Positions 1-36,062 of a stretch of DNA of 36,062 bases are shown piece after piece. Origin of the DNA: a virus; IMG/VR virus record IMGVR_UViG_3300030333_007237, positions 7,398 through 43,459 of that record. One strand, written 5' to 3'. Within the stretch, counting starts at the first letter, position 1, and each line of letters begins with the position of its first letter. Both the position numbers and the translations under genes were made by a program. Under the pieces are notes generated by a model. The model made no database searches. It was not told where the DNA came from and saw nothing but the letters and a program-made list of their open reading frames with translations.

Positions 1-301
1 TCGTATTCATATATTCAGCATAGACAATGGGGTCTTGTTTATCTAACCAATTAAGATTTACCTGAATGGTTTGCCAAGTTTTAACTGCTAATTCATCAGC
101 AAGTCTATAAGTTGCATTTTCTGTTAGTTCATCAATATCAGGAATCCATGACTTACACGGTTCCCAATCTTTACAATCACCAATGGATTTATCTGGAAGT
201 TCTTGTCCTTTTGTGACAGCCTCAACCACCAAACATTTACCATTTTCTTCGATATAGAAAACATGAATTGCATCTGATTTTTCTGATTCGTATTTTTTCA
301 T
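1..301 (-). CDS. Hypothetical protein, 3' end outside window
   Basis: The first 100 codons of an open frame start at ATG 301 and run off the left edge without a stop. A GGAGA ribosome binding site lies 7 bases upstream (309-313). The visible protein begins MKKYESEKSDAIHVFYIEEN and is acidic and soluble, with no signal peptide or membrane segment. Two cysteines lie close together in a GDCKDWEPCKSW segment near residues 43-52. I do not recognise the family. It follows the last fibre gene by 19 bases, so it is probably co-transcribed with it. Its size and composition fit a small accessory or fibre-assembly protein, but that rests only on position. Confidence 0.75.
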   Translation of the reverse strand, partial: MKKYESEKSDAIHVFYIEENGKCLVVEAVTKGQELPDKSIGDCKDWEPCKSWIPDIDELTENATYRLADELAVKTWQTIQVNLNWLDKQDPIVYAEYMNT

Positions 302-320
302 ATTTGATTCTCCATTCTCA

Positions 321-2219: not shown

Positions 2220-2222
2220 CTA

Positions 2223-5200: not shown

Positions 5201-7100
5201 CATAGTGACCGGTGGGGGTATATAATCTCCAATCATCTGTCGCAATAATTTGGAGATTTGTATTCCAGTGACCATTAATTCCTGTAATTGCTGTTCTTTC
5301 CAGAGAGTTCGCAACACTGCAAGGTCCACTGGTCCCTGTGATGTACGGGGCGCATGTGTTCCAATGATAGGCATGGTCGCCGGTTACACCACCATAGTAT
5401 GTTCCATAAGTCTGGTTGTCAGTGGGTGGAGTACCAAATCTCAACAATGTGATTGGTGCGTGACCACCGAAGGGTCCCACATCTTGACCGGCATAACCAC
5501 TAACTGCACCGGTGAGATGTGTTAAACCACCAGAAACTTTAAACCAACCTTCAATGGTAAATTCTTGTCCGTTTGCAGGATAGTCTGGGTCTTTTTTACT
5601 CCAATCAAACGGACCTGCAACTGCTATCCAGTCGTTCCTTAAGTCGGAAGAATGGTGTTCCCCCACACAATAAGCATCATCTGATTCGTATTTATTTTGC
5701 CAAGACAGTGATGCAGGTTTTTTACCCGATACTGATTTCCATGATGTTGGGAAATTTCGACCTTCACCTGTTCTAATAGAACCACCGACAACAGTAACAT
5801 CTCTTCCGTATCTTGTTTCGTCTTTAATGCCGATTGTTTGACCATCAATTCCTTGTGGGTCATTCATATTAAATGCGGCAGAATAATTTCCTTCTTCGTG
5901 ACCTGTTAGGTAACTTTGAATTTTTGCGTAATATTTTGGATAGTAGGGAACTGCGGTTTGACCATCGGGGAATCTTCCTAAATTAATTCCACCTTTCCAT
6001 TCTGTAGTTGTATTGTCATCCCAATATACTTGATTTACCCATCTATCTGCTGTGTAGAAAGATTGGTTTCCTGTGATACCACCGGTAACATTGAAGTTTG
6101 TTCCTCTTTGCCAGTAATCAAACCCACCATTAATAATTTGGTTTGTAAATGGGTTACTTGAACTTGGGCAATGTACTACTGCATTCGCATCTTTCTGATA
6201 ACGAATAATAAAGTTGATGGCAGTGAAAGGTGGCATGTTGTCACCGGTAAGTTCACGGTCTTGACCAGAACTATCTGAACCATCAAAGTCATCACCTGCG
6301 GCAAGAGTCGAGATTTCAGAACCGCCAGTTGCACCAAGATTTCGAGTTGTTAGTCCTGTTCCAGAACCGGCAATATTGGCACCCAGAGGGAACCGACCTT
6401 GTAAGTCGGGAATATGGAACCAATCGGCATCACTTCCACCCGACATTCCATATGTGTGGCCGATTACATTGAACAGGTCTTGCCACTTTCCACCTGTAAT
6501 GAACTTTGAACCGTCACATAGTAAGTGACCATCGGGAATTTGACCTGTTGGTCCTGCGAATGGAAGAATTTGACCAACTGGAGAAATTTCAGTAACATCG
6601 ACTGTACAATCTCCACCGATTACTGTACCAATGTAGTTTACAACATAACCACTCTTGACATCGGTTGTGAGCAACATTGGTTTGATAACTTCACCGGCAC
6701 CCTGTGGTTGATGACACACAAGTTTGCCAGGAATTTCTCTATCAAGATAATAAACTTTTGGATGCTCTAAAGTATCACTCATCAGGTCTAATCTGAAACG
6801 ACCTTGAAGAACAACAACAAAAGTATCACCCTCGACGGATTCTACAACACCAAGTGCTTCTGCGTTCTCAGGATTATTTGCTAGTGCCTTTACCCAACCT
6901 ACTGTTTCGTTTCCATACCCAGGCGGATCCGCAGGACCACCATCGTGTCGAACGACATCACCTGGCCGTAGCATGTGGTTATTGACAAATGCTTCGACGC
7001 CATAGGCACCACGGGCAGGATCCCAACCTCTTAACTGAGTAAAGGTTTCCTTGATTGTTCGGCGTTCATCGCCACCAAGATGGAAAGCACTATATGACAT
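2223..7100 (-). CDS. Giant tail fibre/adhesin: collar, LamG-like and cysteine-repeat domains (1625 aa)
   Basis: Probable receptor-binding tail protein. Residues about 43-170 form a module also present in the upstream fibre gene. Residues 173-262 look like a phage tail collar domain (PVGQILPFAGPTG, LLCDGSKF, FHIPDLQGRFPLGAN). From residue 318 a carbohydrate-binding-type domain begins (IINGGFDYWQRG, YTADRW). Its later pieces appear at about 822-866 (FSQRIEGV, VTLSFWARG, LKQCFG) and 1396-1503 (WKKYEITFRVPHLSGIKVG, AQVQMERG, LCERYY). Between these pieces lie a LamG-like region (FTIEGWF at 514-520, WHHICFARN at 677-685, YKLFVDGILEATG at 691-703) and a cysteine-rich segment (948-1394). The second part of that segment holds about six GxCC repeats. 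AGGAGA lies 9 bases before ATG 7100. Assignments are by motif reading, and the receptor is unknown. Confidence 0.85.
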   Translation of the reverse strand: MSYSAFHLGGDERRTIKETFTQLRGWDPARGAYGVEAFVNNHMLRPGDVVRHDGGPADPPGYGNETVGWVKALANNPENAEALGVVESVEGDTFVVVLQGRFRLDLMSDTLEHPKVYYLDREIPGKLVCHQPQGAGEVIKPMLLTTDVKSGYVVNYIGTVIGGDCTVDVTEISPVGQILPFAGPTGQIPDGHLLCDGSKFITGGKWQDLFNVIGHTYGMSGGSDADWFHIPDLQGRFPLGANIAGSGTGLTTRNLGATGGSEISTLAAGDDFDGSDSSGQDRELTGDNMPPFTAINFIIRYQKDANAVVHCPSSSNPFTNQIINGGFDYWQRGTNFNVTGGITGNQSFYTADRWVNQVYWDDNTTTEWKGGINLGRFPDGQTAVPYYPKYYAKIQSYLTGHEEGNYSAAFNMNDPQGIDGQTIGIKDETRYGRDVTVVGGSIRTGEGRNFPTSWKSVSGKKPASLSWQNKYESDDAYCVGEHHSSDLRNDWIAVAGPFDWSKKDPDYPANGQEFTIEGWFKVSGGLTHLTGAVSGYAGQDVGPFGGHAPITLLRFGTPPTDNQTYGTYYGGVTGDHAYHWNTCAPYITGTSGPCSVANSLERTAITGINGHWNTNLQIIATDDWRLYTPTGHYGGATPTGNLYPVVQFNREGATGNNLSWEHPLSVTGKTNINDGEWHHICFARNNECNEYKLFVDGILEATGNASGNDIAGPVWGLTGGTGGVGDGIWNTGNDYYRHGDMYIFGALDLENVCTTGDYCADGIKITEGADRTILGLVTGYCTSEGLTGHQGFTGDIPGYPYRNFSYGDDDEGGAGSEHKGFCAFSQRIEGVRTFAEGQDEYVTLSFWARGIPGPQTNGDIHINLKQCFGSDISPITGYGEEQYGNTARSSSSKYSVSKYHSSTSKFSSSKSFGNMGNNPKSPNLEFDSTLVESSNINSIGVKGNIQDCEYCTDTCFDCGSEIPAECQGCKCCSRCQSYSGNCSQCPPGVDCGVDVCPKGYCCYSQGACEITTCEDCKGSWTLCTDPEGKCFGQTSCPEGQCDWYKITESAKFSATSKDTTPFRFDGTTRSGVEANTDGKESIGIGTNPDDRDDGGTGEEIVVGACCGLCGVSAIESGCVDNIDRTLCESYGGTFQGANTFCPGCASTAGRCGECCVSYGLCCTGWDAVPAFATGDCSSDYIHGTSYVGLGCASGTATVCEGTYMHLKWNEIPNNDDYLPGGFVGLCATGSTGACCQTNGTCLDGEDINQCYTSGGAWNGWATRCADSDIDCTTGGACCHWDGTCFGMYTTGQCYAVSGIHHGNGVLCSAVTCTGHGACCNEADGKCYEVVSGDCGTTYLTGEHCYDVVCDQRGDIITGNCCVDGIGSVTSEIECDNLGGRWTSGGAPDKTACCRVLPGVRISLHPVWKKYEITFRVPHLSGIKVGDRLNDYFEVNFFTYADIEAGIENKLVGYGSSTLPQHLPCNYPHEWNLAQVQMERGQKASRWEYRPDQIEKQLCERYYEVRRDFSFTTFKHLTGDENHGDISAPPTGGTFHSREFIPYEVEKLYERPEVFVFGVEESTYRLTGFSVVDRNADGFVFKSNYNTGSDAGLAHLTGNYAVISEIYTPEEEARLGYDFYQNDEGA
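2919..3797 (-). repeat. GxCC cysteine-repeat array in the 1625-aa fibre
   Basis: Residues about 1102-1394 hold roughly six degenerate copies of a cysteine repeat. The clearest start at GACCQTNGTC (1232), GACCHWDGTC (1275), GACCNEADGKC (1316) and GNCCVDGIG (1358). Two more divergent copies start near 1103 and 1159. The pattern is GxCC, a short loop, C, about 8-10 residues, C, a Gly-Gly-aromatic turn, then C and a closing C. Spacing between starts is about 40 residues. Copies differ at the DNA level, so this is an old protein repeat and not a recent tandem duplication. Confidence 0.75.
4821..5567 (-). other. LamG / concanavalin A-like domain within the 1625-aa fibre
   Basis: Residues about 512-760 of the 1625-residue protein carry the marks of a concanavalin A-like (LamG) fold. 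An early strand reads FTIEGWFKVSGG, a late strand reads WHHICFARN, and YKLFVDGILEATG follows. A closing strand is MYIFGALDLENV. Such domains usually bind glycans. It lies between pieces of the NGGFDYWQRG / FSQRIEGV / VTLSFWARG domain, so it looks like an insertion into it. Confidence 0.65.
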
Positions 7101-7109
7101 TTATCTTTT

Positions 7110-7115
7110 TCTCCT
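7110..7115 (-). promoter_or_regulatory. Ribosome binding site of the 1625-aa fibre gene
   Basis: AGGAGA on the minus strand lies 9 bases before ATG 7100, in the longest true intergenic gap of the window (34 bases, 7101-7134). No hairpin terminator is visible in this gap, so read-through from the preceding fibre gene is likely. Confidence 0.7.
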
Positions 7116-7134
7116 AGAAGTCATAGTATGTATG

Positions 7135-10100: not shown

Positions 10101-12921
10101 TTCTGAATCTTCGAACCGCCATACCAGTAATAAATCCGTGTGGAGTAATATCACCACCATGTGTTCTAGATGTGATTACTTCTCTGTTTACCCATGAGTG
10201 ATTTAGAACACCATACTGGTCTGCGACTGGAACATTGTATGGTCTAGCATATCGAGCGAATGAATCGCCGTGTGTGATAGAGTTAAAACCAATTAAAGTT
10301 CCTGCGGCATCTCTCTTTCGTGGAGGTTCTGCATATGTTCCATCTGAGAATGGTTGACCAGTTGTACTGAACACTGGTACATAATGTGTACCATCGGGGT
10401 TCATAATCCAACCGGTTACTTCTTCAGTTCCTGCTTCACCACCAGAAAGTGGTCCTGGGTAGTTTGCAGTTCCACCGGAAATCATGTATGTGTAATGGAG
10501 TGCGTTCTTTCCTGTAGACGCGGCGGTCTTGTTGTATCGAACCTTGAAACCTTTGGTCGAATCACCAACATTGGTAAATCTAATACCAGAGTAGTCTCTT
10601 GCCGAATTACCATAGATTGGAATATCACTAACGGAACTATACATTCCCTTAGGCCATTCACCATCATTGGCATTATCTCTTGTTCCCTCAAATTCAATGT
10701 GTTCTGTTGTTCTCCAAGCACCACCGAGTGTTGTGGTGTCTGCACCATCGGAACCATAATTGAATGTCCATTCTTTGTTGTCGGCCATCCAACCTGCTTC
10801 AATACTAATATAGTCGCCAGTAGTGGCACCCATTGAAGCATTTCCGATTGTAGTCCATGGAACTGGTAATGTAGAACCACCAGTACCACAACCTGCGTTG
10901 AAAATTGTACCACCAGTAATTGAAAACCCAGTGGGACCTGTTAGATTATCTTGTGTCCATTCGGTGACACCATCAATTACAAGCAATGCATCTTTATCAA
11001 GACCCACCACATTTGAAGGTGTACCAGTTGCACCAGAACTTGTACCGGAAATCATACTATCGGTTGCATACTCGCCGGGGGATCCTGAAAGTGCAACACC
11101 AGTAATAAAGTATCCAGTTTTAACTTCGATGGTCGTTGTGAATGGTTCACCTGCTGTAATCATTGATACAACTTCACCAGTACCAACAATAGTATCGGCA
11201 ACGATTTGAACAACTTCTTCACCAATATTGAAGATTGAACCACCAGAACCCCACGAATATAATGCACCATTACCAGATGCAAATCTAGCAAGTGTGAAGT
11301 CATCTAGGTCTTTACCGGTTACATATTTGTCAACGATACCATAAACACCACGGGTATCGAAGATTCCGTTTCGATTCTCTGCGGTTGTTGCTCCAGGACC
11401 TGTGATTGTATTATCGAATGGAAGATACAAAGTTGTAAATTCATCACCAGAAACATTGACTGATGAGTCCGAGTAGTTCGGCATCGTCGTTTCATTTACA
11501 CCTGTGATACCATGAGGGTTGTGTGTCGAACCACTTCTCAAACGAACACTTGACATCGCACCCAAGAACATATTACTTGTGGAGTTCAATGGGTGAATCG
11601 AACCACCACTTACTGCTTTCGCACCAATTAAGAGTGGGTCGTTTGCGTGTCCTGTTGCAAGGTTTGTTGCACCTGCTGTGGAAGAAAGATTTGTTCCACT
11701 ATGCGAGACAATTTGATGACCGATTCTAACATTGTTTTTGTACATGGCAATACCATGACCAGAAACACCTGCAACGACAATGTGCTTCCATGATGTACCC
11801 TCAGTCATGTCATCTACATAACCCGTGACAGTACCAGTTGCACCCGCTTCATTTTTGTAGTGAAATTGTAGGAAACCAGTTGTTCCGGGCGAACCACCGG
11901 CAACATATTCGAGGCGGAATGATTCATCACCACCCGTTCCCCATCTTTCCACAATTGCTTTTGATGCGGTTCCGGTTGGTCTGAACCAACCATCAATTTG
12001 CCAGTCGCCTGTTAGGTGGAAGTTTTCTGGACCAGATGGTGGTTGAACCACTTCGATATAACTTCCGGTGTACCCCGAGTGACCATCTGCACCGAAGTAA
12101 CCTGCCCATCCTAACGCTCCATTGGCATTAATACCAGATAGGTCATCTGTTAGATGAACATCATTGGCGAAAACTTGGTTTGCACCCTGAATCACATAGT
12201 GACCGGAAACATAAGTTTCGTTTGTAATGTGGTCTTCGGCAAATTTAATTTGCTGACGGTCTGGGTCTTCTGTTTTTCCAAGAACGGCAATACCGGCGCG
12301 GTTTGTTTTATTACCACCAAGAAGGGCATCTGTGCTATTGAAATCTGGTCTTGGTAAAGCAATGCCTTGTTCGTTGAAAGGAACTGCGAGTTCTAATTGT
12401 TGGTCTTCTACTCTAAAGTTTTGTGTTGTTGCGACCGAGAAATCATTAATGAATGTAATATCACCTGCAAAAATATGGTCCCCGTAGATTGTTTGGGGAA
12501 GCATAAATGCCGCTTGCACTTTTCGTAATTTAGTTGGATCCGCCTCGGCACCACCTGCGTGATTTGTTTCCATCATAAAAAATGCATCATCGGGAACCAA
12601 AATATCATCGGTGGTTGTATCTGCATCTGGATTCGTAAAGACTTCGGCCGCCTGTAATCCAACAATATCTACAGTCAATTCATTGTAGATATTTACCCGT
12701 ACACCAGGACCTCTATTGATTTCGATTTCACTAAAAGTATCACTGTGTTGAAGACCACCATCTCCTGCAACATCAAACATGTTGAGCGGGTTCAGAGCGG
12801 CAATAATTTGATTACTCTTATCAAACCAATCATTGAAAGAATCCACCAACTTAAGTGGAGTTACATGGATTAGGTTATCCGATGAATACGGAAAATAAAT
12901 TTCTGGTCCTGTTACTGGCAT
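7135..12921 (-). CDS. Giant virion fibre protein with LamG-like domain (1928 aa)
   Basis: Probable long tail-fibre or baseplate-peripheral protein. The N-terminus (EIYFPYSSDNLIHVTPLKLV) probably attaches it to the virion. Residues about 300-460 look LamG/ConA-like (WQIDGWFRPTG, WKHIVVAGVSG, IAMYKNNVRIG). Residues about 928-1097 share a module with the next fibre protein (MAVRRFR, EWVRAF, SEALGIVSRV, VVVNYSGGVI). Residues about 1195-1350 are fibre-type repeats with recurrent SI/SV, K(I/L) and DG steps (KDKSITEVKIGD, LEDGSVTQAKLAFG, IQDGSIQGIDIG). Near the C-terminus is a VCCCVNAGG motif. TAATG overlaps the small gene before it and supports ATG 12921. The family is inferred from motifs and context, and no enzyme site is visible. 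Confidence 0.8.
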   Translation of the reverse strand: MPVTGPEIYFPYSSDNLIHVTPLKLVDSFNDWFDKSNQIIAALNPLNMFDVAGDGGLQHSDTFSEIEINRGPGVRVNIYNELTVDIVGLQAAEVFTNPDADTTTDDILVPDDAFFMMETNHAGGAEADPTKLRKVQAAFMLPQTIYGDHIFAGDITFINDFSVATTQNFRVEDQQLELAVPFNEQGIALPRPDFNSTDALLGGNKTNRAGIAVLGKTEDPDRQQIKFAEDHITNETYVSGHYVIQGANQVFANDVHLTDDLSGINANGALGWAGYFGADGHSGYTGSYIEVVQPPSGPENFHLTGDWQIDGWFRPTGTASKAIVERWGTGGDESFRLEYVAGGSPGTTGFLQFHYKNEAGATGTVTGYVDDMTEGTSWKHIVVAGVSGHGIAMYKNNVRIGHQIVSHSGTNLSSTAGATNLATGHANDPLLIGAKAVSGGSIHPLNSTSNMFLGAMSSVRLRSGSTHNPHGITGVNETTMPNYSDSSVNVSGDEFTTLYLPFDNTITGPGATTAENRNGIFDTRGVYGIVDKYVTGKDLDDFTLARFASGNGALYSWGSGGSIFNIGEEVVQIVADTIVGTGEVVSMITAGEPFTTTIEVKTGYFITGVALSGSPGEYATDSMISGTSSGATGTPSNVVGLDKDALLVIDGVTEWTQDNLTGPTGFSITGGTIFNAGCGTGGSTLPVPWTTIGNASMGATTGDYISIEAGWMADNKEWTFNYGSDGADTTTLGGAWRTTEHIEFEGTRDNANDGEWPKGMYSSVSDIPIYGNSARDYSGIRFTNVGDSTKGFKVRYNKTAASTGKNALHYTYMISGGTANYPGPLSGGEAGTEEVTGWIMNPDGTHYVPVFSTTGQPFSDGTYAEPPRKRDAAGTLIGFNSITHGDSFARYARPYNVPVADQYGVLNHSWVNREVITSRTHGGDITPHGFITGMAVRRFRTDQPEGGAGDSAKEWVRAFGSQVTSELATGEEAPYSATNPNATDATINSEALGIVSRVHDVNTFEICYSGPISFTTGEIAAFLDKDDMGNHPVPHEGANFLLPGEPYFVSVRPGQTGRLTEEEPDNRDGKNIGNVRKVMMVATSQTTAVVVNYSGGVIPDPATGTPDDIIEPTETYYDIVKDGFVPDGTDILGYYGNTPDGTNQENAGNDNNPDPATNRRFLEVNAGGNLFLRKLHISGPDIGAGQVTGMHFGVGELDGSLHIKDKSITEVKIGDLEISGALIKDNAILQRHLNDNIVGTDELEDGSVTQAKLAFGIDWEGLIACNTLNGCVITDAPFGISSSKINPGAVNSSHIQDGSIQGIDIGTTQITGGHLSTTTDLRIKTDNIDDLQISRSKIKDLAIDWSKIDKDNFGTVLAGHLKVANGKLSIDTTLSSDDDEVNTLYGEVNFFESQKPGVSGGTDDSGNITSFTTGTTRTNVPGLHIRRLNKMGHHPRYAMIGPLNNDNPANPINTTWANTGDVELVQDAALIEYSFLTADQIGLDSADYQFDISVPIGDGENFGHRAVLLAHMPDRHGTFPNGVNYKQAGDGFYNTRPSGFSDGLTGTYPQQFVNYVPLGNVSVDGITGFYPVMFGSNAGPGEASVMKGNLRVPHGPAKFFVATQVVAKRTDFSVLGTQTLTLDHDGTPAGWEGNFATGGNNWIYQITGGMSLDDSVGAQVHDLVAMGRLVDILSTGNAGNQFETQVLVEVYAGEFHTGGNAGQNFSAGANVYPRYIQPAHDHSQKINATSGGIDTSGYGVSIRGNWGLPLQDSSGKSAPLSGGWVTGSEELYTQFNIKQILAPEFASTTTGGSTWQIRNGVCCCVNAGGTAGGGNAAFNVVGVSFDECQQLLNQYDNRDSANVDVDISRRYISGADIVFNAPYASVFPPADGDPIVYDETNTYSIEGNCYPSIEVITETGASNVGNPGPSGGAHDSSDYANIGGCYVN
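8872..9339 (-). repeat. Fibre-shaft repeats in the 1928-aa protein
   Basis: Residues about 1195-1350 contain short imperfect repeats in which a Ser-Ile or Ser-Val pair, a Lys-Ile or Lys-Leu pair and a Asp-Gly or Asp-Asn turn alternate every 10-20 residues. Examples are KDKSITEVKIGD, LEDGSVTQAKLAFG and IQDGSIQGIDIG. This spacing is typical of intertwined trimeric beta-helices in phage fibres. That fold is an inference. Confidence 0.6.
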
Positions 12922-13139: not shown

Positions 13140-16100
13140 TCACCCCGGCAGAGCAATTGCTCTTAAATCTTTCACTCTTGGGACTTTGGCAGAATCGCTT
13201 GAATACAGTACTAGTTTAATTGCAAACCGATTAAAGGAATCGGACACATCACCAGTCACTGTTTCGAACTTCATATCCTGTAAGTCATCTGAATATGTAT
13301 TCGTTGAAGTTTGAGTCAATTGTACATAACCCAAATCATCAAAGTCTCCTTCATACTCTGGTGTCGCAGAACGAATGAACGCTTGAATACTTGAACCTTG
13401 TGGAAGATAAGTGTTCAAATGCACTTCCATCTTATCAGATTCAAATCCTTCTTCGAGAGTAACACGACGAGTGATGTATCTACACACACCACCACCACCA
13501 GTTAGGTTGGATGGGAACCCCTCGCTAATAATACCAGGCATTTGTGCCTTTGGATTCAACTCACCATTGTAATTTGAATTTGTTGGGTCGGTTATTGTAT
13601 TTGAGTTAATCAAGTTTTCAACGGCAAGAAGATTCAATCTTTCTGCATCAATTACCGGACTCACTCTGCTATCAGATGTTGACATCCCAACACGGAGTTT
13701 ACATGTTGCATTACTAGATTCTCCATCATATACTTCATTAATTCTATGGGTTGTTTCCATTTCAACATTGGTATTTGGTTTAATTGTCATTGCAGAAGTT
13801 TCAGAGAACGAACCAATTCCATTACCATTAGTTGAAGTGTGTAATTTAAATGTTGCATTTGTTTGACTAAACTCTTGATAGTCTGCAAGAAGTTTAATAA
13901 CATCAACACCAACATAATGTCTATCTGCAACCGGTGATGTTGTATATCCTTTATTTTTGAATTGAACATCACCACTCGAAACAAAATCACATCTATTAAT
14001 TCTAAACATGATGTCTTTAGTTTGGTCAGCAGACCAAGTGCTTGAATTCTGTGATAAGAACATCACACCAGCATATGGTTGGTTTGCGATTGGGTCCGCA
14101 TCTGTGTTCTTTTCACTATCAATTCTGTTTGCACCAACTTCTGCCGTGTAAATGTGATAATCACCACTGTTTGATATAACTGTGAATGAGTATTCACCGG
14201 GCGATAAGAAGATTGGATTATCAAAATCGAATCGTGTGTAAGATGAAGATGAATTTGGATTCGGAGTAGTCGATACATTAACATCTTCGAATCTCTTTGT
14301 CTTGACCGCCATTGGAATGATTTCACCAGAACTTGGATAACCATTTACCATAGGTCGAATTTCTACCGTCACGGGTAGACTACCATCTCTCATTGCAAAC
14401 CAAAGGTCGATACTAGACACGAACATGCCATTTGGATTTGTTACTGGATCCACTAAGAATGATTGTGCAACTGGATCCCTCCAGATTGTATCTGTCTCTG
14501 TTTTTGTTTGGTTGAATCTATCAATTGGGTTAGTTAGAATAGTTTCAGTATTTACATTTGGTCGTTTATTAATAACTGGTCGTGTTCCTTTACCTTGATT
14601 GAACACATAACCATTAGCGGCAAATGTAATATCTGCGGCGGTTGTCGCTGTTGCAACATTATTATCCGAAACATCTGTTATACGAAGTTGTCGTTCACCA
14701 GTTCGGAATGTTCCTGCCGGTAGTTTGGTATGGAATGGGAATTCACCCTGAGAATTTGTTCTGAAATTGAAGGCTGTAATCGTCGCTGTTTGGTCAACGA
14801 TTCCGGCCGGTCCATTATTCTTAATAATATCACCGACTTTAAATTGTCCAACAATATCTTTAACAACCAAAGTACCCGATGTTTGACTACCCCCATCACC
14901 ACCATAATTCCAAACAGAAATCTTACAGGTCGAACCTGCTCTATCACCGGTTGTATTTTCAAGTACGGTGTCTTCAGCAGTTCCGTCTGTTGGTAGCACG
15001 AACGCATCAGCATTTGCAAAACCAACATCCCATGTCAATGGTGTTGTGAAATCATTGATTTTGACACCATCAAAGAAAATATGAATATCGGTATTTGGTT
15101 TCAATCCTCTAGATGTTGCGTCAATATCAACCGCTCGCATATAAGGAACTAAACTGACATTGAAAGTTCTATTTCCAAGACTCTTAATAATACTCTCGGG
15201 AATATTTCTTGTACGAATACCTCTTCGTGTTTTTACCTTTCCAGATTCAAAAACTTCTCTGGTAATCTTGCCTGGTTGTGTACTTGCCCAACCAATTGAT
15301 TCTTCGGTAGGTACATTTTCCTTTCCTGTCCAAACCAATTCCCAATCGTTCCACTGTGTTCCGAAAGGATTATCTTTTTGTACCCAGGCGTCATTTTCAC
15401 CTTCAGCGTTAGTTTGAACAATTGGTTTAGTTGAAACATCATACCATGTATCTGATTGTGGGGTACATCTAATGTCACCTTGCCACTCGATAGTGTGGAA
15501 TGGGTTCACACTAATACTTGTGCTTGCCATTGGTTGTTCAATTTCTTTCACTTCAGAATAGTTTAGTGTGAATAAACCACTTTCACTACCAGTAATCTGT
15601 GCTTCACCAACCGAATCATCGTGAACAAGAGTGATTGGTCGTGTTTCGAATTCTGGACGCAGTTCTTCTTTCTCGAAATCAATTGAGCAACTATAGTCAG
15701 GGTTTGTAACATCACCAACACTGTGACCCTTGAATGGGTCAACAAGAATACCATTCTTAAATATATCTGTTCCGTTGGAATCAGTAATACTTAAAGCATC
15801 TGTTTCTTTTTCAAGTAATGACAGTGTGGTGTAGTATTCGAGTCTATCCACACGCTTATCGATTTTACCAATATCTCTCATGGTATATCGTTTGTTCTCA
15901 ACATACCGAGTATTGACATCGTTGATATCAAATGTGTACGCAGGAATTTTTGCCACATAAAGTGTCATCGAATCGTCGCGGTCGGGTGGTGTAGGAGAAT
16001 CTTCCTTTGGAATACCACGAATCGCTTGGAATTCTTTGTCCCTTGTAAGAACAATTTTATCAACTCTTGGTAGGTAGTGCTTGTAGTCAATTGTTCCAGA

Positions 16101-18894: not shown

Positions 18895-21096
18895 CTAAAA
18901 GCCCAGTACGACTTTGATATCTTCTTCTTGTTCGAAGTTTCTTAAAACAGGCCTCATATTCTGTATGTATATTAATTCACCAGACCCCTTCTCTAGTTCT
19001 GGAATATCAACCGAAGATACAGTAGAAACTTGTGGTGGACTAGTTAATGAATAATTTTCATCAGATGTTTCGGGTAAGAAAAGGGAAATATCGTACAGAT
19101 TTTCACCTGTCTTGAACTTACCGTCAACCGCAATTAGTTGTAGTGTACCGGTTGTTCCGTTGGTCCCGGCAGACCAATTAAGAACCACCCCAGTGGTTGA
19201 AGTATCTTGACCAACCAAAATGGTATCTTGAGGATATGTTGTATCAGTCAAAGCATCTTGTCCAGATACTGCTTCCACATTCACTTCTGTGTACAATTTA
19301 TATGTTAAATCTGTGTCGTTGTTGTATGGGGTGATACTTCGTACAGTTGCCAAACTAGAACCAGTGCTGAAATTCCAAGCACCAGAATCTAATTTGAAGG
19401 CATTAATTGCTTCACCAGTAACGCTACCATCGGCAGCAGTACCAATAAAGTCACCTGCATTGATATCATAAACTGTTAAAAGTCCATAATCTTTAGAAGT
19501 CAAATCATACGAGAATCTACTGACCTTTGCTACGGCATTTGACCTATCACCAATGATGTAATCGCCGCTTACAAAAGTCGTGTCATTGAATAATCGTGTA
19601 CCATCGCCAGTAATTGCATCAATTGTAATCACTGCTGTCACTGGTAATTCAGTTCCTGCAATCTTTCCTGTGTGGTCGCCCCCACCAGATGCACCACCGG
19701 AACTAATAAGTGGATTCTTGATAATACCAATTGACCTAAAATCATTTGTAATATTGAAGTCACCTGCTTCATCTCTCTCGAACGAAACAACTAACATTAT
19801 TTGGTCTGCTCCCAGTTCTTTGACAGGGTTACTACCAAACCCACCCTTTGGTGGAATCGATACTTTAACAATTGGTTCGACCGCAGGTGTATCGATAACT
19901 CTCCCTCTTGGGTAGATATCTGCTGTTCCTGTGGTGTAACCCGAACCACCACTGACCATATTGATTTTTTCAATCTTTTGGAATGTTTCCGTGTTTGGAT
20001 TTGTCAATGATTCTTGTGGGTATAATTTAATAGATGCTTCTGCATTTTCACCATCACCTCTGATTGTGCATTTTGGAACAATGCTATAAACACTGTGGTC
20101 TGAACCTTGAGAAGCAGATAGACTATCTTGCCAATTTCTATCAAGATAAAGTGTTCTTGTAGATGCAACATAACCTGTGATGTGTCTTACTTGTCCTGAA
20201 CCAGAACCAGAAGTGATAACTACAGAGTAACCATTGTAATAATCATTAATGGCAGAACTTGCGCCGATTTCATTTGCTAGAATCAATTCTGCACGAACAT
20301 CACCTCCAGTGATACCGCTACCGGGCACATCGATTCTTGGGTCGTTTTCGCCAATTTCTTCTCTATCAACTTTGGTTACTGTCACACAACTTGGAACAGT
20401 TCTTACAAAAGCATCACCTTCAAGAACCACATCAATGTGGTCAATTTGTCCGTCTTTCGCTGCCTGTTGAACATCCCACTGTAATCGAGTTTCATCTAGA
20501 AGTTCGGAAGAATTCAGTGTTTCGACATACTGAACAGGAATGTATTCGTCTGTCATGAACCGAAACAGTGTCTCTGGAATTGTATACAAATATTTCCATC
20601 GATAACCGTCCTCTAATTCGATGATATTTGGTGAGGTTCCACTTGGTTGTTTTGTAGATGTTCCACCTCGATTGTTTGAAATGCACATATACACATGGTT
20701 TTCGTTTGTCAGGACATAGAATCTTTTTGGCCACTGACCGGCAATATTTGCACTTTCATATGGTGGTTTCAATTCTCTAAACAATTCAACATCTGGGTCA
20801 TACTCATCCCATACATTATCAGCAGTCCAATCGATACGAGGAATTGCATGATAAGCATCGATTTGTCTAATTCGTTTAGCACCAATTGCATCTCTCCATG
20901 CTCCAAATGTCACACTAGTACAATCTCTTGCTAAACGGGGTGAAGTGTCGTTTCCTTCTTCCCACGATGGTCCGGTTCCCCAAGAATTTGTTCTACCAAA
21001 AACCATAAAATAGCGGTCACGGGAATTGGTTTTGAAGTTATCAAACCAATCCGCTGCCCATAGTCTTTTCATTGAATTCTTAACTGGATCCGCCAT
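18895..21096 (-). CDS. gp8: Baseplate wedge protein gp8, enlarged (733 aa)
   Basis: This matches T4 gp8, which dimerises in the wedge and helps hold gp6, gp7 and gp10. The N-terminal region (YFMVFGRTNSWG, IPRIDWTADNVWDEYDP, LEDGYRWKYLYTIPE) and the extreme C-terminus (GELIYIQNMRPVLRNFEQEE) correspond to the ends of T4 gp8. T4 gp8 is about 334 residues and this protein is 733. The extra length lies in the middle, roughly residues 230-690, and is a beta-rich, Thr/Gly-rich expansion (SGITGGDVRAELILAN, MVSGGSGYTTGTADIYPRG). The start is firm: AAGGAGAG ends 4 bases before ATG 21096. It sits between the gp7-position gene and the DUF4815 gene, as expected for a T4-like wedge operon. Confidence 0.85.
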   Translation of the reverse strand: MADPVKNSMKRLWAADWFDNFKTNSRDRYFMVFGRTNSWGTGPSWEEGNDTSPRLARDCTSVTFGAWRDAIGAKRIRQIDAYHAIPRIDWTADNVWDEYDPDVELFRELKPPYESANIAGQWPKRFYVLTNENHVYMCISNNRGGTSTKQPSGTSPNIIELEDGYRWKYLYTIPETLFRFMTDEYIPVQYVETLNSSELLDETRLQWDVQQAAKDGQIDHIDVVLEGDAFVRTVPSCVTVTKVDREEIGENDPRIDVPGSGITGGDVRAELILANEIGASSAINDYYNGYSVVITSGSGSGQVRHITGYVASTRTLYLDRNWQDSLSASQGSDHSVYSIVPKCTIRGDGENAEASIKLYPQESLTNPNTETFQKIEKINMVSGGSGYTTGTADIYPRGRVIDTPAVEPIVKVSIPPKGGFGSNPVKELGADQIMLVVSFERDEAGDFNITNDFRSIGIIKNPLISSGGASGGGDHTGKIAGTELPVTAVITIDAITGDGTRLFNDTTFVSGDYIIGDRSNAVAKVSRFSYDLTSKDYGLLTVYDINAGDFIGTAADGSVTGEAINAFKLDSGAWNFSTGSSLATVRSITPYNNDTDLTYKLYTEVNVEAVSGQDALTDTTYPQDTILVGQDTSTTGVVLNWSAGTNGTTGTLQLIAVDGKFKTGENLYDISLFLPETSDENYSLTSPPQVSTVSSVDIPELEKGSGELIYIQNMRPVLRNFEQEEDIKVVLGF

Positions 21097-25907: not shown

Positions 25908-26565
25908 ATGTACCCCACAATCTAGATTCGATGTATCTCCTCTTATCTATCAATTCTTCTTTGACCCGAACGAAATCAATTTCATCAACTTTCCCCCAAT
26001 TGCACCATTCCACCACAACAGCACCATTCAATTCGCCCTTAAGTCCACGAAGTGGTAGGGTGGAGAACATCAGGACTCTATTTCCCTCTAGCACTCTCTT
26101 GAAATGGGAAACTTCAAGTGTTGATGTCAAGACTGGTTTTGTATCATCACCGGCAACTTTTTCCAAGAAGTCGGAATACATTGTCAAGAGAACATCTTGT
26201 CTTTCCATCTGTGTTTCGTTAACACCGTCAACACATGATTCGTGAGTGACAGACATTTTTTGCATACAGTTCCCGTTGATAACTTGCCCACCGTTATGAA
26301 ACTGGACTATGTGTGTTCGTGCGGCATCGAGTTTGATTCTAAGTTCTGTGAGATACTCATGGACTTTATTGTGTCTTGAAATGAAATTTGAATTGGGTGG
26401 TATAACCGATTTCTTCTTATTGAATTTCCTCGTCAGGGCAATAATAGCAGGGATGCCTACGACAACACCGGCAGCAAGTGCAAGTATCACCATTCCTACT
26501 TCTACCCATGACCCGAAGATATCAACGGATCCAAAATTGTTATCCATGTCTACCGGTACTTTCAT
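25891..26565 (-). CDS. Membrane-anchored protein of unknown function in the baseplate operon (224 aa)
   Basis: One clear membrane segment occupies residues about 21-44 (VEVGMVILALAAGVVVGIPA and on), followed by basic residues (RKFNKKK), suggesting the C-terminal domain faces the cytoplasm. That soluble domain contains RTHIVQFHNGG, MSVTHESCVDG and a later strand LNGAVVVEW. This resembles GAF/PAS-like sensor folds in outline, but the resemblance is weak. I chose ATG 26565 because GGGAG lies 6 bases upstream and it forms TAATG with the PAAR stop. The in-frame ATG at 26616 would add 17 residues and a long overlap. A membrane protein between PAAR and gp25 is not part of the T4 baseplate. It may act in infection or lysis. 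Function unknown. Confidence 0.75.
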   Translation of the reverse strand: MKVPVDMDNNFGSVDIFGSWVEVGMVILALAAGVVVGIPAIIALTRKFNKKKSVIPPNSNFISRHNKVHEYLTELRIKLDAARTHIVQFHNGGQVINGNCMQKMSVTHESCVDGVNETQMERQDVLLTMYSDFLEKVAGDDTKPVLTSTLEVSHFKRVLEGNRVLMFSTLPLRGLKGELNGAVVVEWCNWGKVDEIDFVRVKEELIDKRRYIESRLWGTYGKEE

Positions 26566-31400: not shown

Positions 31401-32613
31401 GGATACCCTGCGGTCCTTGAGGACCGGCAGGACCTTGAATTGTTTGAATTGGACTACCTGCCGCAATTCCACCTGCGACTGTTCCGGCCGCCGCACCTGC
31501 TCCTGCTCCTGCTAATGCATCGCCCAAGGCGTTTGTTGCTAGGTCACTATTAATAAATTGTTGTACTGCTGGTAACAGATAATCAGGAATAGCGTTTGCG
31601 GCATCGTTCGAATCAAATTCATCTGACCTTCTCGCCTTTGTTCCTTTTCCTGTATCCGAAGCACACGCCCCGTTCATATCAGAAACACCACCTTCGGGGT
31701 TCATGTCGATACGGGGCGCACTAAGTGTCATTCCTGCACCTGCACTTAGAATGTAAGTGCCTGCCACAGATACACGCATACTACCATCTACTTGTTGCCT
31801 ACAGTCACCACCAATATTGGCAAACATGTCACCATCACATGTGAGGTCAACATTTGATTTCACATAAATCTTGGCATCACCATCAACAGTAATGTTGGCG
31901 TTTCCTTCAACATGCTTGAAGTCATTACCCTTGGTGATTTCATAATTGTCTTTGACATTCTTTGTTACCTTTGTACCATCAGGATGAATCTCTTCTGAAG
32001 TTCCTGCTTTATGATACCGGTGCAATCTTTCTGCACCAGGCGTATCGTCCCACTCTTCAATGTGGCCCGATTCACTTTGTCTTACATGATTATATGGATA
32101 CTCCGCCGCATATGGTGTTTCTGGTTCACTCCATTCACCACATTGTGCAGTTTGTACATCTTTATCAATACCATCCTTTTTGAGTTGGATGATTGTTTCT
32201 TCGATTTTCTCGTTTCGCCCCAGTCGGTTCGTATCTACTTCACCAGTTACGGTTGGATACTTACCGGTAGGGTCATTGAATCCTTTTCCAGGATCCGCTT
32301 CAACTTCTGGTTTACCTGCAAGAGTACCAAGCATAACTGGTTCTTGTGCAGATATACCATCACGGAAAAACCCAAGAACCCATGTTCCCTCAACAGGACC
32401 CAGTGGTGTTGTACCAACACCGCTCATTGCCGCAGATGTTAATGGTTGTAGTGGGTATGCCCACGGTAACATTTCCGTTGGGATTTCAGATTTCTTATCA
32501 CTATGGAAACCCAGACAACGAACTCTACAACGGCCTAGTTTCAGAGGGTCGTTTCTATCTTCAACCACCCCCTGAAACCAAACATAATTATCTAGGCCCA
32601 TAACTTTTGACAT
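28471..32613 (-). CDS. gp5: Central spike gp5-like protein, no lysozyme, with collagen-like and cysteine-repeat extensions (1380 aa)
   Basis: Residues 1-105 are the gp5 OB-fold (VWFQGVVEDRNDPLKLGRCR, LPWAYPLQPLTSAAMSGVG, GPVEGTWVLGFF). T4 gp5 then has a lysozyme. Here only a linker of about 60 residues follows and no Glu-Asp-Thr lysozyme site is seen. Residues about 167-300 match the T4 spike beta-helix (SGHIEEWDDTPGAERLHRYH, VEGNANITVDGDAKIYV). T4 gp5 stops near there (575 residues). This protein continues with a collagen-like stretch (391-411), a beta domain resembling C1q/BclA (about 425-580), a longer collagen-like stretch (592-641), six cysteine repeats (765-985), and a C-terminal domain ending in IKWPGGVEPALGTTGTDIIS and YGFVGGINF. 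How the extensions coexist with a PAAR-capped tip is unclear. The stop overlaps the next ATG. Confidence 0.9.
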   Translation of the reverse strand: MSKVMGLDNYVWFQGVVEDRNDPLKLGRCRVRCLGFHSDKKSEIPTEMLPWAYPLQPLTSAAMSGVGTTPLGPVEGTWVLGFFRDGISAQEPVMLGTLAGKPEVEADPGKGFNDPTGKYPTVTGEVDTNRLGRNEKIEETIIQLKKDGIDKDVQTAQCGEWSEPETPYAAEYPYNHVRQSESGHIEEWDDTPGAERLHRYHKAGTSEEIHPDGTKVTKNVKDNYEITKGNDFKHVEGNANITVDGDAKIYVKSNVDLTCDGDMFANIGGDCRQQVDGSMRVSVAGTYILSAGAGMTLSAPRIDMNPEGGVSDMNGACASDTGKGTKARRSDEFDSNDAANAIPDYLLPAVQQFINSDLATNALGDALAGAGAGAAAGTVAGGIAAGSPIQTIQGPAGPQGPQGIPGINGTTGSGGAGVTGSGIWDGYDNAGGQSVYATGGVAGPGVVVNYAEALNTDSVSFTWDATDDCLTFNYAGKYLVMYRVGSQLTAGVRATTVKSWLQKKLVSWADIPGTEGYHTCATTTNAEGTTTVHVVLDVTTPGTKIRVKHAIEAVASNGDATVQTIANGSGLTALDLTKAISGFFATGGSGSGSDGATGPTGPTGPQGPQGDTGPTGPAGANGADGAAGSDGAAGADGATGDYGGMTFRYNWETGTVSSAGQIGFGSDVLTLHNETAETSNPDINNFLDIFDDVFGGFSPFGYCKVYIPEEPEKFRIYQLNDETQDSGNLHKFSAEEKATTHTFSDGDAVNVTFTFAAGLVTGSVGSCCYDGNCTDSIVQQNCVDIGGDWSATACSGRTCSGAVTGSCCYGCGECFDTTQDGCSNINGTFNSGSHCTGTTCSVGTLGCCCKNGFGYFMSECQCDQINGSYQGNGPCSPVNPCGDAGLQGVCCLGTMCLGYISCALCQTLGGLCNNGPGVGDCSDVNWCGGNPPPRCACCDGNDCENTDYDDCNADCVLSQPCSAVLGCCMCNSEDCDDGWEDDDCEKLAVVKAMIPNAPTPGSGKANLSKESFESAGTFTPNSFFGQAYAYQQAGNAGGLMTGPPTLMTGGTGQNGCNWPATIWTFDPTEPITGSSFGISGISGVTGLSGEIYYNYSQYHPRHLWLGHLADVCFTSYPEHGSVLHFDTGITGMFSKGGHWTDTKDLEITKIGVGGTGNDPLFVSGNTTITGGNLILGGNVEITEDGWIGNVSANAIHFNDVSSSRLDMRCNEVKFENLLGHYGDGDTYLKFDADQFTIHCGGADQIVTTTNKVAMGDIELERPKLKDYSETVYDHGDKKSISLNWENGNVQEVTGSTSSGMVASSAISFANEPAAGTAGSMTLIIKSGALMTGSSNFWETSIKWPGGVEPALGTTGTDIISFLTTDGGTTVYGFVGGINFS
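29659..30321 (-). repeat. GxCC cysteine-repeat array in gp5
   Basis: Residues about 765-985 hold six degenerate repeats starting at GSCCYDGNC (765), GSCCYGCGEC (805), GCCCKNGFG (846), GVCCLGTMC (888), CACCDGNDC (935) and GCCMCNSEDC (966). The first four are about 36-42 residues long and the last two are shortened. Typical copies continue with CxxxGGxW-like turns (NCVDIGGDWS) and end in a CxxxxC pair. The same repeat is in the 1625-residue fibre. About 45 cysteines in this segment imply disulfides or metal binding. Confidence 0.8.
30691..30840 (-). repeat. Collagen-like Gly-X-Y segment of gp5 (second)
   Basis: Residues about 592-641 read as uninterrupted Gly-X-Y triplets (GATGPTGPTGPQGPQGDTGP, then PAGANGADGAAGSDGAAGAD). 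This can form a trimeric collagen helix, which suits the trimeric gp5 spike. It connects the C1q-like-looking domain to the cysteine-repeat half. Confidence 0.85.
31381..31443 (-). repeat. Collagen-like Gly-X-Y segment of gp5 (first)
   Basis: Residues about 391-411 form a short Gly-X-Y run (TIQGPAGPQGPQGIPGINGT). It follows an Ala/Gly-rich linker after the spike beta-helix and precedes a beta domain with C1q/BclA-like features (FNYAGKYLVMYRVGSQL near 472-488). Confidence 0.8.
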
Positions 32614-32769: not shown

Positions 32770-32776
32770 GAGTAAA

Positions 32777-32782
32777 CTCCCT
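32777..32782 (-). promoter_or_regulatory. Ribosome binding site of the 50-aa gene
   Basis: AGGGAG on the minus strand lies 7 bases before ATG 32769, immediately after the hub stop codon. It is the main support that the 50-codon frame is translated. Confidence 0.65.
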
Positions 32783-34075
32783 TTAGATGTTCATTGTCTT
32801 TGTATCTGGATACGGTGTTTCGACCGATTCCCTACGAAGTTCTAAAAATAATTTGTAATCTTTATTTGTGATGGCATGTCTAATTTGTGTAATCATATAT
32901 TTACCACTTACTGAAGCATCATACCACTGCTTCATTGTTCCAACGGGTTCTGTTGATGGTAATCTAACATCTACGATATCACCAACTCTTCTCCTTGAGT
33001 CGCCCGGCACGATGAGGTCGAGTCCTTGACCAAATAGCAATTGTGTCATCAAAGAATTTCTTTCCAAAACGAAATCCTCTGTTTTCTCATTATCACGAAT
33101 GTCATCATATTTATATGTGTGCTTTGGTTGCACCCTCAGAAACGAACTGTCGGAACTATTAACTGCACCCATTGCGGTCGAAATGGGTTTGTGTTTTTCG
33201 ATGGAGGGTGTTTCTTCAAAATGTTCATTGTAGTTGAATTTCTTTTCGGTTACAGTCTTACCGATTAAATCATGCGTTAGAATTCGACCAGAGAACATAC
33301 CTCTTTTCATTTGCTCTGCTCTTTCAGATGATGGTTTAATTGTATACGCTTCAATGTTTTTCAACTCACGCAAAATATCCCTTGCACCACTTTCCTGAAC
33401 TACCGTGCCCGCAGGGTCGAATCTATATTCCTGTTGCGTGTCATTTTCCATTAGTTTCGATAGAGAAACAAAATAATTGGCATCAATGGTTTCAAAGAAT
33501 CTATAATTGCTAACTTTTGTATTCTTTTCGGAAATTGCTCTTTTGGATAACCAATTGATAGCAGAGAAAGGTTTCCAATTTGGAATCACAAACTTGTGGG
33601 TGTCTAATGTTTTCTCGGTTACAATAACCTTGTCTTCTGAAACATACTCTTTGAATATTCTTTCAACTATTTCACTAACCTTACCTTCATATGCCTTTGA
33701 CACTCTCTTTTGAATATCATAGAAATGAGATTTACTGACAAGTTCAATTGTGTATCTTTGCATCTTTTGTGACTTGTCTGATATTCTAGTAGAAATTCCA
33801 TCAACCATAAGAGACAGTTTGCATTTTGGAAAACCTGGCGTGAAGAAAGTTATATCAACAGTTTCTTGTCCCATTAGAGGCATGTGTTGTGCCAAGTTAA
33901 TACCTTCAACCAAAGAAATCCTTGCGGTCAAGAAATTCTCAAAAAGGTTTTCGAAAATATCAATAGTGTCGAAGTGGTTTGTTAAATCGAGAGAAGCACC
34001 ATTTGGTGAACTCAATCGACATTCTTCGATGAGATATTCATTTGCTTTGAATAGTTCATTCTTTCTATCCAACAT
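32783..34075 (-). CDS. Baseplate hub protein, gp27-type (430 aa)
   Basis: The 430-residue protein lies between gp53 and gp5, and its size is close to T4 gp27 (391 residues), the trimeric ring that carries gp5 and extends the tail tube. The N-terminal region (LDLTNHFDTIDIFENLFENF, ARISLVEGINLAQHMPLMGQ) and a middle part (WKPFSAINWLSKRAISEKNT) look like hub proteins of contractile phages (T4 gp27 / Mu gp44 / P2 gpD group). The C-terminal part has a beta-barrel-like segment (GQGLDLIVPGDSRRRVGDIV, then YMITQIRHAITNKDYKLFLE), usual in this fold. I use ATG 34075, 2 bases after the gp53 stop. An alternative TTG at 34081 would overlap that stop but has a poorer ribosome site. Similarity to T4 gp27 itself is not obvious by eye. 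Confidence 0.75.
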   Translation of the reverse strand: MLDRKNELFKANEYLIEECRLSSPNGASLDLTNHFDTIDIFENLFENFLTARISLVEGINLAQHMPLMGQETVDITFFTPGFPKCKLSLMVDGISTRISDKSQKMQRYTIELVSKSHFYDIQKRVSKAYEGKVSEIVERIFKEYVSEDKVIVTEKTLDTHKFVIPNWKPFSAINWLSKRAISEKNTKVSNYRFFETIDANYFVSLSKLMENDTQQEYRFDPAGTVVQESGARDILRELKNIEAYTIKPSSERAEQMKRGMFSGRILTHDLIGKTVTEKKFNYNEHFEETPSIEKHKPISTAMGAVNSSDSSFLRVQPKHTYKYDDIRDNEKTEDFVLERNSLMTQLLFGQGLDLIVPGDSRRRVGDIVDVRLPSTEPVGTMKQWYDASVSGKYMITQIRHAITNKDYKLFLELRRESVETPYPDTKTMNI

Positions 34076-34077
34076 AA

Positions 34078-35787
34078 TCAATTATCCAGTAGTTGTTCAA
34101 TTTCTTTTACGGCGATATCCAAATACTCTGGTCGTAGAAGTCTGATTGGCCGCTTCTTTTCGTTTTCATCCAATTCATACTCTTCCATAGAGACTGCGTT
34201 GATGGTAGCACCATCAATCAATTGGTTGTCTTGGGTGTATTTGTACAATAAAGTTTCTTGCCAATCAAGTGGCACTGGGTTGATAACAGTACCAGAATAG
34301 ATTGTTCCGTTTTCGTCAGCAAAAGGATTCAAGGTGTTACCATTGGCATCTTCAAAGTGATGTAAAGATTTTTCCGGTAGCAATACAATCTTAAGAATAG
34401 GAATTGGTTGATTCAAATCGATAATTGAATCTGGTACTGTTCCACCATCAAATAAACTTCTTTGATATTGTTGACGACCATAGGACATGTCAGTGATAAC
34501 TTCTTGGAATCCTGAGCGTTTTCTATACGCACTGGTCAATGAATTTACAAACATTGACTTATCAATTCCAAACCATCTGTATTCTTTCGCCTCTAGTGAT
34601 GGTTTTTCGAAATTGAAATGACTTGTACTTTTTTCCGAATCGCAACAGGCAAGTAGTTTAATAGAAGGATTGATTTTTCCAAGAAACTGAGAAAAGAAAG
34701 ATTCTGCACCTGTTCCTGGACTACTTCCCTTCCATTCGTTCGTGAAAATCATTTCACCCCGATGTTGTTTCGTCAATGTATTTGTGCTTCCAACACAAGA
34801 ACACCTACCACCACTGACTTGGGCAATAATTTCAAAGTACATGGTATTGGTGCCATCTTCATTTTCAGTTTCAGAAAAATTCTGAACATCAATTTTTTCA
34901 GTTGGAGCGCCTTTATTACCTGCGAAGCATATTGATTGTTCTGTGGCATTAATTGAATATTTGCAAGAAGATGTTTTGTTGTTTTTTGGTTGTGTGGTGA
35001 CTGTAACTCGAAGTTTAAAGTGTCTTTGACAATAACCACAAATTCCATCTACAGTTTTGGAACAATCACCACCATCTGGTTCGAGACTTAATGTTCCTGT
35101 TCCCTGTGCATTGGGAACTCCTGCCGATATATCTTGTTTCGTCAAGGGGGAAAGATACAATGGATTGTTTTTGCTCTTATCATCATTATATTGAACAATA
35201 CCATCTAATTGTTGCTGACCTTGAGATGTTCGGTATTCATACACTGGGTCTTCGTCTTCGCCATAATTCTGCACTGACCCATAGACACTGATACCATCAC
35301 CAACTTGATAATCTACATCACCATCAAGAATTATTTTGTGGAGTGATTTGTCTGTTCCCAAACATTCCTTTGTGTCTATTAGTCTCCAATAATTTGGTTC
35401 ACCTTCCTCACCGGTGACATATCGATTGATACCAACAAGGTCACCAGTCTTTACTTTGAAGTCCGAACTATTCAAGAAGCACACCGTTCCTTTGTACTTT
35501 CTTTCAAATAGGTCTGACATTTCTTGACTGCTCATCACCCATTCGTGAATAGGATTAATTTTCTCATTGAACAATAAAACAACCCAATGGAAATTTGGGT
35601 CACCATAAATTTTGTCTGCAATGATTTCTGGTCGGTCGGTGTCTTTGGTATTGTATTCAATAAAATAATCGCCTTCGTCTTTTAAGCGTTTTCTGAAAGC
35701 GACCCGTTGGAGGATATTCGTAGCAAGAGTATACTTTTGCTTATCTTCTAGGTCATACCAAACTGAGGAGAAATTTCCAAAATACAT
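34078..35787 (-). CDS. gp53: Baseplate wedge protein gp53, enlarged (569 aa)
   Basis: Residues 1-100 are clear gp53: a Tyr-Phe-Ile-Glu-Tyr strand, then DRPEIIADKIYGDPNFHWVV and NPIHEWVMSSQEMSDLFERK. The C-terminal 60 residues (MEEYELDENEKKRPIRLLRP, EYLDIAVKEIEQLL) match the usual gp53 end. T4 gp53 is 196 residues, while this protein is 569. The extra material lies at about 100-510 and includes a cysteine-containing stretch at 236-392 (CSKTVDGICGYCQ, SGGRCSCVGS, LACCDSEKS). gp53 completes the wedge and contacts the central tube region. The start forms TAATG with the preceding gp48 stop. The insertion presumably projects from the wedge, and its fold and role are unknown. Confidence 0.9.
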   Translation of the reverse strand: MYFGNFSSVWYDLEDKQKYTLATNILQRVAFRKRLKDEGDYFIEYNTKDTDRPEIIADKIYGDPNFHWVVLLFNEKINPIHEWVMSSQEMSDLFERKYKGTVCFLNSSDFKVKTGDLVGINRYVTGEEGEPNYWRLIDTKECLGTDKSLHKIILDGDVDYQVGDGISVYGSVQNYGEDEDPVYEYRTSQGQQQLDGIVQYNDDKSKNNPLYLSPLTKQDISAGVPNAQGTGTLSLEPDGGDCSKTVDGICGYCQRHFKLRVTVTTQPKNNKTSSCKYSINATEQSICFAGNKGAPTEKIDVQNFSETENEDGTNTMYFEIIAQVSGGRCSCVGSTNTLTKQHRGEMIFTNEWKGSSPGTGAESFFSQFLGKINPSIKLLACCDSEKSTSHFNFEKPSLEAKEYRWFGIDKSMFVNSLTSAYRKRSGFQEVITDMSYGRQQYQRSLFDGGTVPDSIIDLNQPIPILKIVLLPEKSLHHFEDANGNTLNPFADENGTIYSGTVINPVPLDWQETLLYKYTQDNQLIDGATINAVSMEEYELDENEKKRPIRLLRPEYLDIAVKEIEQLLDN

Positions 35788-36062
35788 TAGTGTCCTCTCT
35801 CTACTTGTTGTCTAGTAAGTTGTGTTGTTTCCTTGAAGGTAAGGGATAGTTTCATACTCGCAGGTCTACCGTCTGGTAGAATATTCCAACCCTCTGCCCC
35901 TGCAAAGTCCACATCAATCTTACTGATTACACATGGTCTGAATTTATGCAAATGTTTATTTTTACCAGACTGATACTGGTATGAAATCAGAAATTCAGAT
36001 GGCATGATGTAGAATCTACCACCACTTGATAATTCTGGGTACGCATGTTTTCTGAATGTTCT
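35787..36062 (-). CDS. gp48: Baseplate tail-tube cap protein gp48 (C-terminal part), 5' end outside window
   Basis: The last 91 codons of an open frame enter from the right edge and end in TAA overlapping the gp53 start (TAATG). The fragment reads FRKHAYPELSSGGRFYIMPS at its left part and MKLSLTFKETTQLTRQQVER near its end. It resembles the C-terminal, tail-tube-like domain of T4 gp48 and gp54, which cap the hub and start tube growth. A position directly before gp53 favours gp48 in the order used by cyanophage-type T4-like phages. gp54 is the alternative, since the two proteins are related. The Met at 36005 is internal to a continuing frame and is not the true start. Confidence 0.7.
   Translation of the reverse strand, partial: RTFRKHAYPELSSGGRFYIMPSEFLISYQYQSGKNKHLHKFRPCVISKIDVDFAGAEGWNILPDGRPASMKLSLTFKETTQLTRQQVERGH

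Follow-up and report, generated by a model that had tools for sequence, protein, structure and literature searches.

GATC has been purged from the DNA of a marine T4-like phage except where it lies within GGATCC, and this purge is real, strong and recurrent: T4-like relatives keep the site in two nested grades, either only as GGATCC or as GGATC on either strand, and unrelated phages of SAR11 are found that lack GATC altogether. The stretch analysed, hereafter the window, comprises bases 7398–43459 of IMG/VR record IMGVR_UViG_3300030333_007237 (G000, 43,459 bp) and is 36,062 bp long. It carries T4-like baseplate wedge, neck and tail fibre genes, and the first 7.4 kb of the contig hold the terminase and part of the sheath. 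Three protein scans with the window genes found no further contigs of the window phage's genome.

GATC in the window and its contig

All 12 GATC in the window sit in GGATCC (Table 1), and this exact count agrees with the positions listed in the original prediction. The count that it proposed beyond the window found one further GATC in the remaining 7,397 bases, also within GGATCC, giving 13 of 13 for the contig. Expectations were taken from codon-preserving shuffles of the contig genes (300 rounds), which yielded a mean of 145 GATC (range 114–166) against the 13 seen, far under expectation and thus site avoidance. Outside GGATCC, no GATC was seen against about 138–145 expected; by context, HGATCD was absent (81 expected), as was one-sided GGATC (64 expected). 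GGATCC was seen 13 times against a mean of 6.6–7.4, a count reached by 1% of the shuffles. Because 13 were seen against 7.4 expected while the other contexts stood at zero, GGATCC is spared and mildly in excess. The earlier claims that GATC is strongly depleted beyond what coding can explain, and that GGATCC is undepleted and perhaps overrepresented, were thus borne out, and the shuffles rule out chance, codon use and composition as causes of the depletion.

Table 1. Features of the window, and AlwI-type loci of SAR11
Feature	Location	Strand	Basis
T4-like structural gene block without GATC outside GGATCC, genes all on the - strand	1..36062	.	counts, shuffles, gene identity
GGATCC site	6925..6930	.	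sequence count
GGATCC site	7018..7023	.	sequence count
GGATCC site	11080..11085	.	sequence count
GGATCC site	12536..12541	.	sequence count
GGATCC site	14446..14451	.	sequence count
GGATCC site	14473..14478	.	sequence count
GGATCC site	16608..16613	.	sequence count
GGATCC site	16852..16857	.	sequence count
GGATCC site	18069..18074	.	sequence count
GGATCC site	21086..21091	.	sequence count
GGATCC site	26527..26532	.	sequence count
GGATCC site	32291..32296	.	sequence count
SAR11 AlwI-type gene (PF09491) beside D12 methyltransferase	L390:1435-3758; L391:2-2310; L393; L396	.	Pfam

Two grades of exemption among T4-like relatives

IMG/VR was scanned with the baseplate gp6, terminase and sheath of the window phage and a capsid alignment of relatives, and the GATC contexts were read for each contig. 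By gp6, the nearest cultured phages were Melnitz (host OM43) and Mosig and HTVC008M (both on SAR11 strain HTCC1062). The strict grade, with GATC in GGATCC only, comprised the window contig and the SAR11 phage Mosig, in which all 19 GATC over 141,461 bp lay in GGATCC and about 307 GATC were expected. The loose grade, with GATC kept in GGATC on either strand, comprised HTVC008M (83 of 83 GATC within GGATC; HGATCD 0 against about 208 expected) and two IMG/VR contigs, G001 (124 kb) and G015 (177 kb), each with 121 of 121 GATC in GGATC, spread evenly along the sequence; several other IMG/VR contigs obeyed the loose rule as well. HGATCD was absent from all five genomes, with 81–218 expected in each (188, 200, 187 and 218 by codon-preserving shuffles in the four beyond the window contig). 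Within the three loose-grade genomes, GGATCT was partly lost (13, 18 and 15 seen; 51, 48 and 64 expected), and GGATCA was near or somewhat under expectation (35, 65 and 79 seen; 52, 63 and 83 expected).

The closest contig, L010, with 95% terminase identity to the window contig, had its sole GATC in GGATCC. L002 (66% identity in gp6) had 18 GATC, of which GGATCC accounted for 15 and GGATC for the remaining three, and many related T4-like contigs were free of any GATC, GGATCC included. Judging by its sample code, G001 may come from Lake Erie. SAR11-type T4-like phages have been reported from that lake (PMC7029224). An assembly artefact is unlikely, as two phages that were isolated and sequenced independently obey the rule. 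Conserved functional sites were likewise rejected as a cause, given that the window contig and L010 share 4.4 kb at 84% identity and have one GGATCC each, in different places.

In the terminase tree, the loose (5-mer) label could not be mapped with fewer than five changes, nor the strict (6-mer) label with fewer than three, on well-supported (starred) branches. The former count takes in G006, whose label comes from one one-sided site out of its two GATC and which should rather be regarded as almost devoid of GATC. The pair of the window contig and L010 adjoined L011, which has no GATC, and was well separated from G001 and from Mosig, HTVC008M and G015, a placement that needs the exemption rule in at least three separate lineages. 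The strict Mosig and the loose G015 stand side by side in one clade, so that the grade changes quickly.

Other depleted and retained sites

The contig genes also lacked ACGT (96 expected) and AGCT (67 expected), neither with an exempt context. The hexamers GGTACC, CTGCAG and TTATAA were absent from the contig (18, 12 and 12 expected), and AGCC/GGCT was low (15 against 109 expected). From these many depleted motifs it follows that pressure bears on the genome at numerous type II-like sites, of which GATC alone carries an exemption. CGGCCG was in excess in the contig (11 against 2 expected).

As a control, 83 depleted genome–palindrome pairs were searched for a split of this kind at thresholds chosen after the GATC case had been seen, which makes this a screen rather than a test; GATC split from GGATC(C) seven times and CCGG from GCCGG three times, and two other splits were weak. 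With so few splits among the 83 pairs, nested exemption is no automatic result of site depletion. The CCGG cases, in which the depleted site is mostly kept within GCCGG, were Melnitz (L156/L157/L164), G007 (L151-L155) and G006 (L147-L150); in Melnitz, all 15 remaining CCGG lay in GCCGG, and the rest stood at 0 against 63 expected. By these counts, CCGG/GCCGG is a possible second nested exemption.

Several further patterns were seen. AGCT and the non-palindromic 4-mer AGCC/GGCT were absent in the cyanophage-like contigs L053, L056, L057, L060, L064 and L085 (in one such contig, AGCC/GGCT was 0 against about 85 expected). G015 (L248-L256, 177 kb) had no CATG against about 614 expected and two TCGA against 229. 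All 15 GATC of G007 (91 kb) fell in bases 1-10000 (L151) and the other 81 kb had none, which probably means that this end was imported recently or that the contig is a chimera. The Roseobacter phage CRP-804 (L446-L447) reverses the rule of the window, with GGATCC at 0 against about 11 expected and other GATC free.

GATC absence without exemption in other SAR11 phages

Among 14 SAR11 phages in culture that are not T4-like (T7-like and others; records L408, L409, L424-L437 and L442-L445), 11 had no GATC in any context, where about 15–21 one-sided GGATC and one or two GGATCC were expected per phage. HTVC010P, HTVC119P and HTVC200P did not avoid GATC. Because 11 of the 14 have none, the pressure would not be private to T4-like phages; on these counts, SAR11 phages in general seem to be exposed to GATC-cutting pressure, and the exemption seems to belong to the T4-like phages. 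HTVC011P, HTVC019P, Eistla and HTVC031P, all on HTCC1062, are among the zero-GATC phages, so that GGATC(C) is not retained by all phages of one host. Because these same-host phages have no exemption, it would be due neither to the specificity of the cutter nor to methylation by the common laboratory host, a comparison that must allow for phages whose main hosts in the sea may be strains other than the one used for isolation. Many of the non-T4-like SAR11 phages were also without GGCC, AAGCTT, AGTACT and CTTAAG.

Restriction and methyltransferase genes in SAR11 hosts

Two papers (PMC7029224, PMC9516812) state that SAR11 carries almost no restriction systems. We searched 397 SAR11 genomes, which represent the host group of Mosig and HTVC008M and may not include the host of the window phage. 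No gene of the DpnII type (PF04556) or of the MutH/Sau3AI type (PF02976) scored above the cut-off in these 397 genomes. AlwI-type restriction genes (PF09491) were found in five of them, and in three of the bearing genomes examined the gene adjoins a D12 DNA methyltransferase (Table 1). D12 methyltransferases occurred in about a dozen of the 397 genomes, about nine besides the AlwI-linked ones. Some D12 genes had no obvious nuclease partner and lay near typA and groEL (L383-L389, L392), with varying flanking genes. GATC was not avoided in SAR11 DNA around rRNA genes (1930 seen, 2065 expected).

Candidate shield genes in the phages

Directly downstream of the DNA polymerase, Mosig encodes an MT-A70-like adenine methyltransferase (truncated at the end of the record), G015 an N6/N4 methyltransferase (PF01555) and Melnitz a C5 methyltransferase. 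The same slot holds a DruA-like gene in HTVC008M and no modification-type gene in G001; the window contig spans structural genes, and its post-polymerase slot lies outside. HTVC008M, recorded as complete, had no DNA methyltransferase recognisable by catalytic motifs, PF05063 (MT-A70) or PF01555 (N6/N4), and the 124-kb fragment G001 had none by catalytic motifs, PF05063, PF01555 or PF02086. A Dam-type methyltransferase (PF02086) was found in none of 14 related virus records, a search that included G001. The lack of a recognisable methyltransferase in HTVC008M and G001 is the main weakness of reading the protection as methylation. PF01555 matches in G006 and G007 were rejected as the shield since their presence is out of step with the exemption, and DruA/DUF4338 was rejected since it occurs in HTVC008M and Mosig, not in G001 or G015. 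HTVC008M has two DruA/DUF4338-like genes (L162:49535-50000 with L163:1-659, and L162:36116-37258), one of which occupies the slot where relatives carry DNA methyltransferases.

Explanations of the nested exemption

The best explanation is GATC-cutting restriction pressure combined with phage-carried protection of GGATC(C), which in its full form we judge about as likely as not to be right; that restriction caused the purge is likelier than the details of the protection. From the surviving sites we infer the enzyme, the modification, the phage as its supplier and the strand logic, as follows. The window phage would be one of a marine and freshwater T4-like group. In the hosts of this group, or in neighbouring ones, an enzyme would cut GATC wherever it is unmodified, and selection would remove GATC from the phage genomes. 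A sequence-specific DNA modification carried by the phage, most simply methylation, would block cutting at GGATCC. If it is the GGATC strand that receives this modification, both strands of the palindrome GGATCC would carry it but only one strand of a one-sided GGATC, and the grade of the surviving sites would be set by whether the cutter tolerates a single modified strand. This explanation is strengthened because the rule recurs in far-apart lineages and because a second grade (GGATC) exists; the methyltransferase genes after the polymerase of Mosig, G015 and Melnitz and the precedent of M.Nph3I also speak for it. Against it stand the failure to find a DpnII-type or MutH/Sau3AI-type gene in the 397 SAR11 genomes and the partial loss of GGATCT in loose-grade genomes, which is not predicted by simple GGATC methylation. 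A more specific version, which we offer tentatively and consider doubtful as a whole, is that a strong GATC-cutting defence acts on SAR11 phages and that the T4-like phages independently gained a narrow GGATC/GGATCC shield, which at least in HTVC008M would be something other than a recognisable methyltransferase.

The protection may instead be given by the hosts, whether SAR11 subclades or others, if a GGATC- or GGATCC-specific methyltransferase of theirs methylates the phage DNA and no phage gene is needed. HTVC008M and G001, without a recognisable methyltransferase, would suit this, as would the SAR11 AlwI-type gene beside a D12-class methyltransferase, AlwI itself cutting GGATC, and the scattering of these genes and of other D12 genes over the SAR11 genomes. 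However, such host genes are rare (1-3%) against a seemingly complete exemption in the phages, and the HTCC1062 podophages keep neither GGATC nor GGATCC, which makes the idea unlikely. The original prediction thus survives in that GATC-cutter pressure with GGATCC protection is still the best reading, while a general host methyltransferase as its source is disfavoured by these podophages.

Its alternative, a restriction enzyme that spares GGATCC, fared worse. A cutter that itself leaves GGATC (or GGATCC) uncut, the true site being something like HGATCD, would fit the zero HGATCD in every loose-grade genome, and the graded survival, with GGATCA kept and GGATCT partly lost, would suit a flank preference. 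Nevertheless, two grades would demand two cutters, each with an unusual exclusion, and neither the SAR11 podophages, same-host ones among them, nor the T4-like contigs without GATC retain GGATC or GGATCC, so that we consider such a cutter improbable.

Self-avoidance, in which a T4-like phage purges the sites of its own GATC nuclease for host DNA breakdown, would accord with the few known restriction systems of the hosts and with SAR11 DNA that does not avoid GATC, but is very improbable in view of the same purge in unrelated T7-like SAR11 phages and the lack of a restriction-type nuclease among 30 phage proteins (unknowns and methyltransferases) checked against Pfam. Methylation-dependent cutting, whereby a Dam-like enzyme would methylate GATC except in GGATC(C) and a DpnI-type enzyme elsewhere would cut the methylated sites, can hardly be credited: Dam-like D12 methyltransferases do exist in some SAR11 genomes, but they are rare, and the podophage loss of GGATC would be left unexplained. 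Mutation or codon bias without selection against GATC has practically no chance of being the cause, as the shuffles never came near the 13 GATC seen and all forbidden contexts stand at zero in five genomes.

Returning to restriction pressure with phage-carried protection, the surviving sites, beyond counts of missing ones, would reveal from sequence alone what the attack (GATC) and the shield (GGATC or GGATCC) each recognise, and this could be applied to uncultured phages. On this explanation, the host pool of SAR11, whose members are the commonest bacteria of the sea, is predicted to contain a defence that cuts GATC, in contrast to the surveys that give SAR11 almost no restriction systems, and the two cultured phages Mosig and HTVC008M make this predicted defence testable.

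Comparison with known systems

No published description of such a nested exemption was found in the open-licence literature, and an earlier mention elsewhere is possible. In the text of Rusinov et al. 2018 (PMC6286503) available to us, GATC is depleted in 46 of 46 phages whose hosts encode a matching enzyme. That avoidance, a short palindrome depleted under type II restriction pressure, is like that of the window phage; in the same portion of the paper, however, the site is treated as one class and survival within a longer sequence is not mentioned, whereas the window phage displays such survival. GANTC is reported in part of a 2022 paper in Microbiome (PMC9516812) to be depleted in pelagiphages, a case resembling that of GATC in that it concerns SAR11 phages whose hosts are without known restriction systems, and differing in the motif and in that this part reports no exempt context.

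The recognition sequences of BamHI-type (GGATCC) and AlwI-type (GGATC) systems are the two exempt sequences; unlike sites under attack by such enzymes, they are kept by the exempt phages, and AlwI-type genes alone were seen, in hosts. The closest likeness to the proposed shield is M.Nph3I of phage NrS-3, a phage methyltransferase on GATC-containing sites that strongly prefers GGATCC, methylating it over 95% and the other three RGATCY sites about 32% (PMC10734518). M.Nph3I differs in being part of a restriction-modification pair and in recognising RGATCY, whereas the shield enzyme of the window phage is so far a proposed one.
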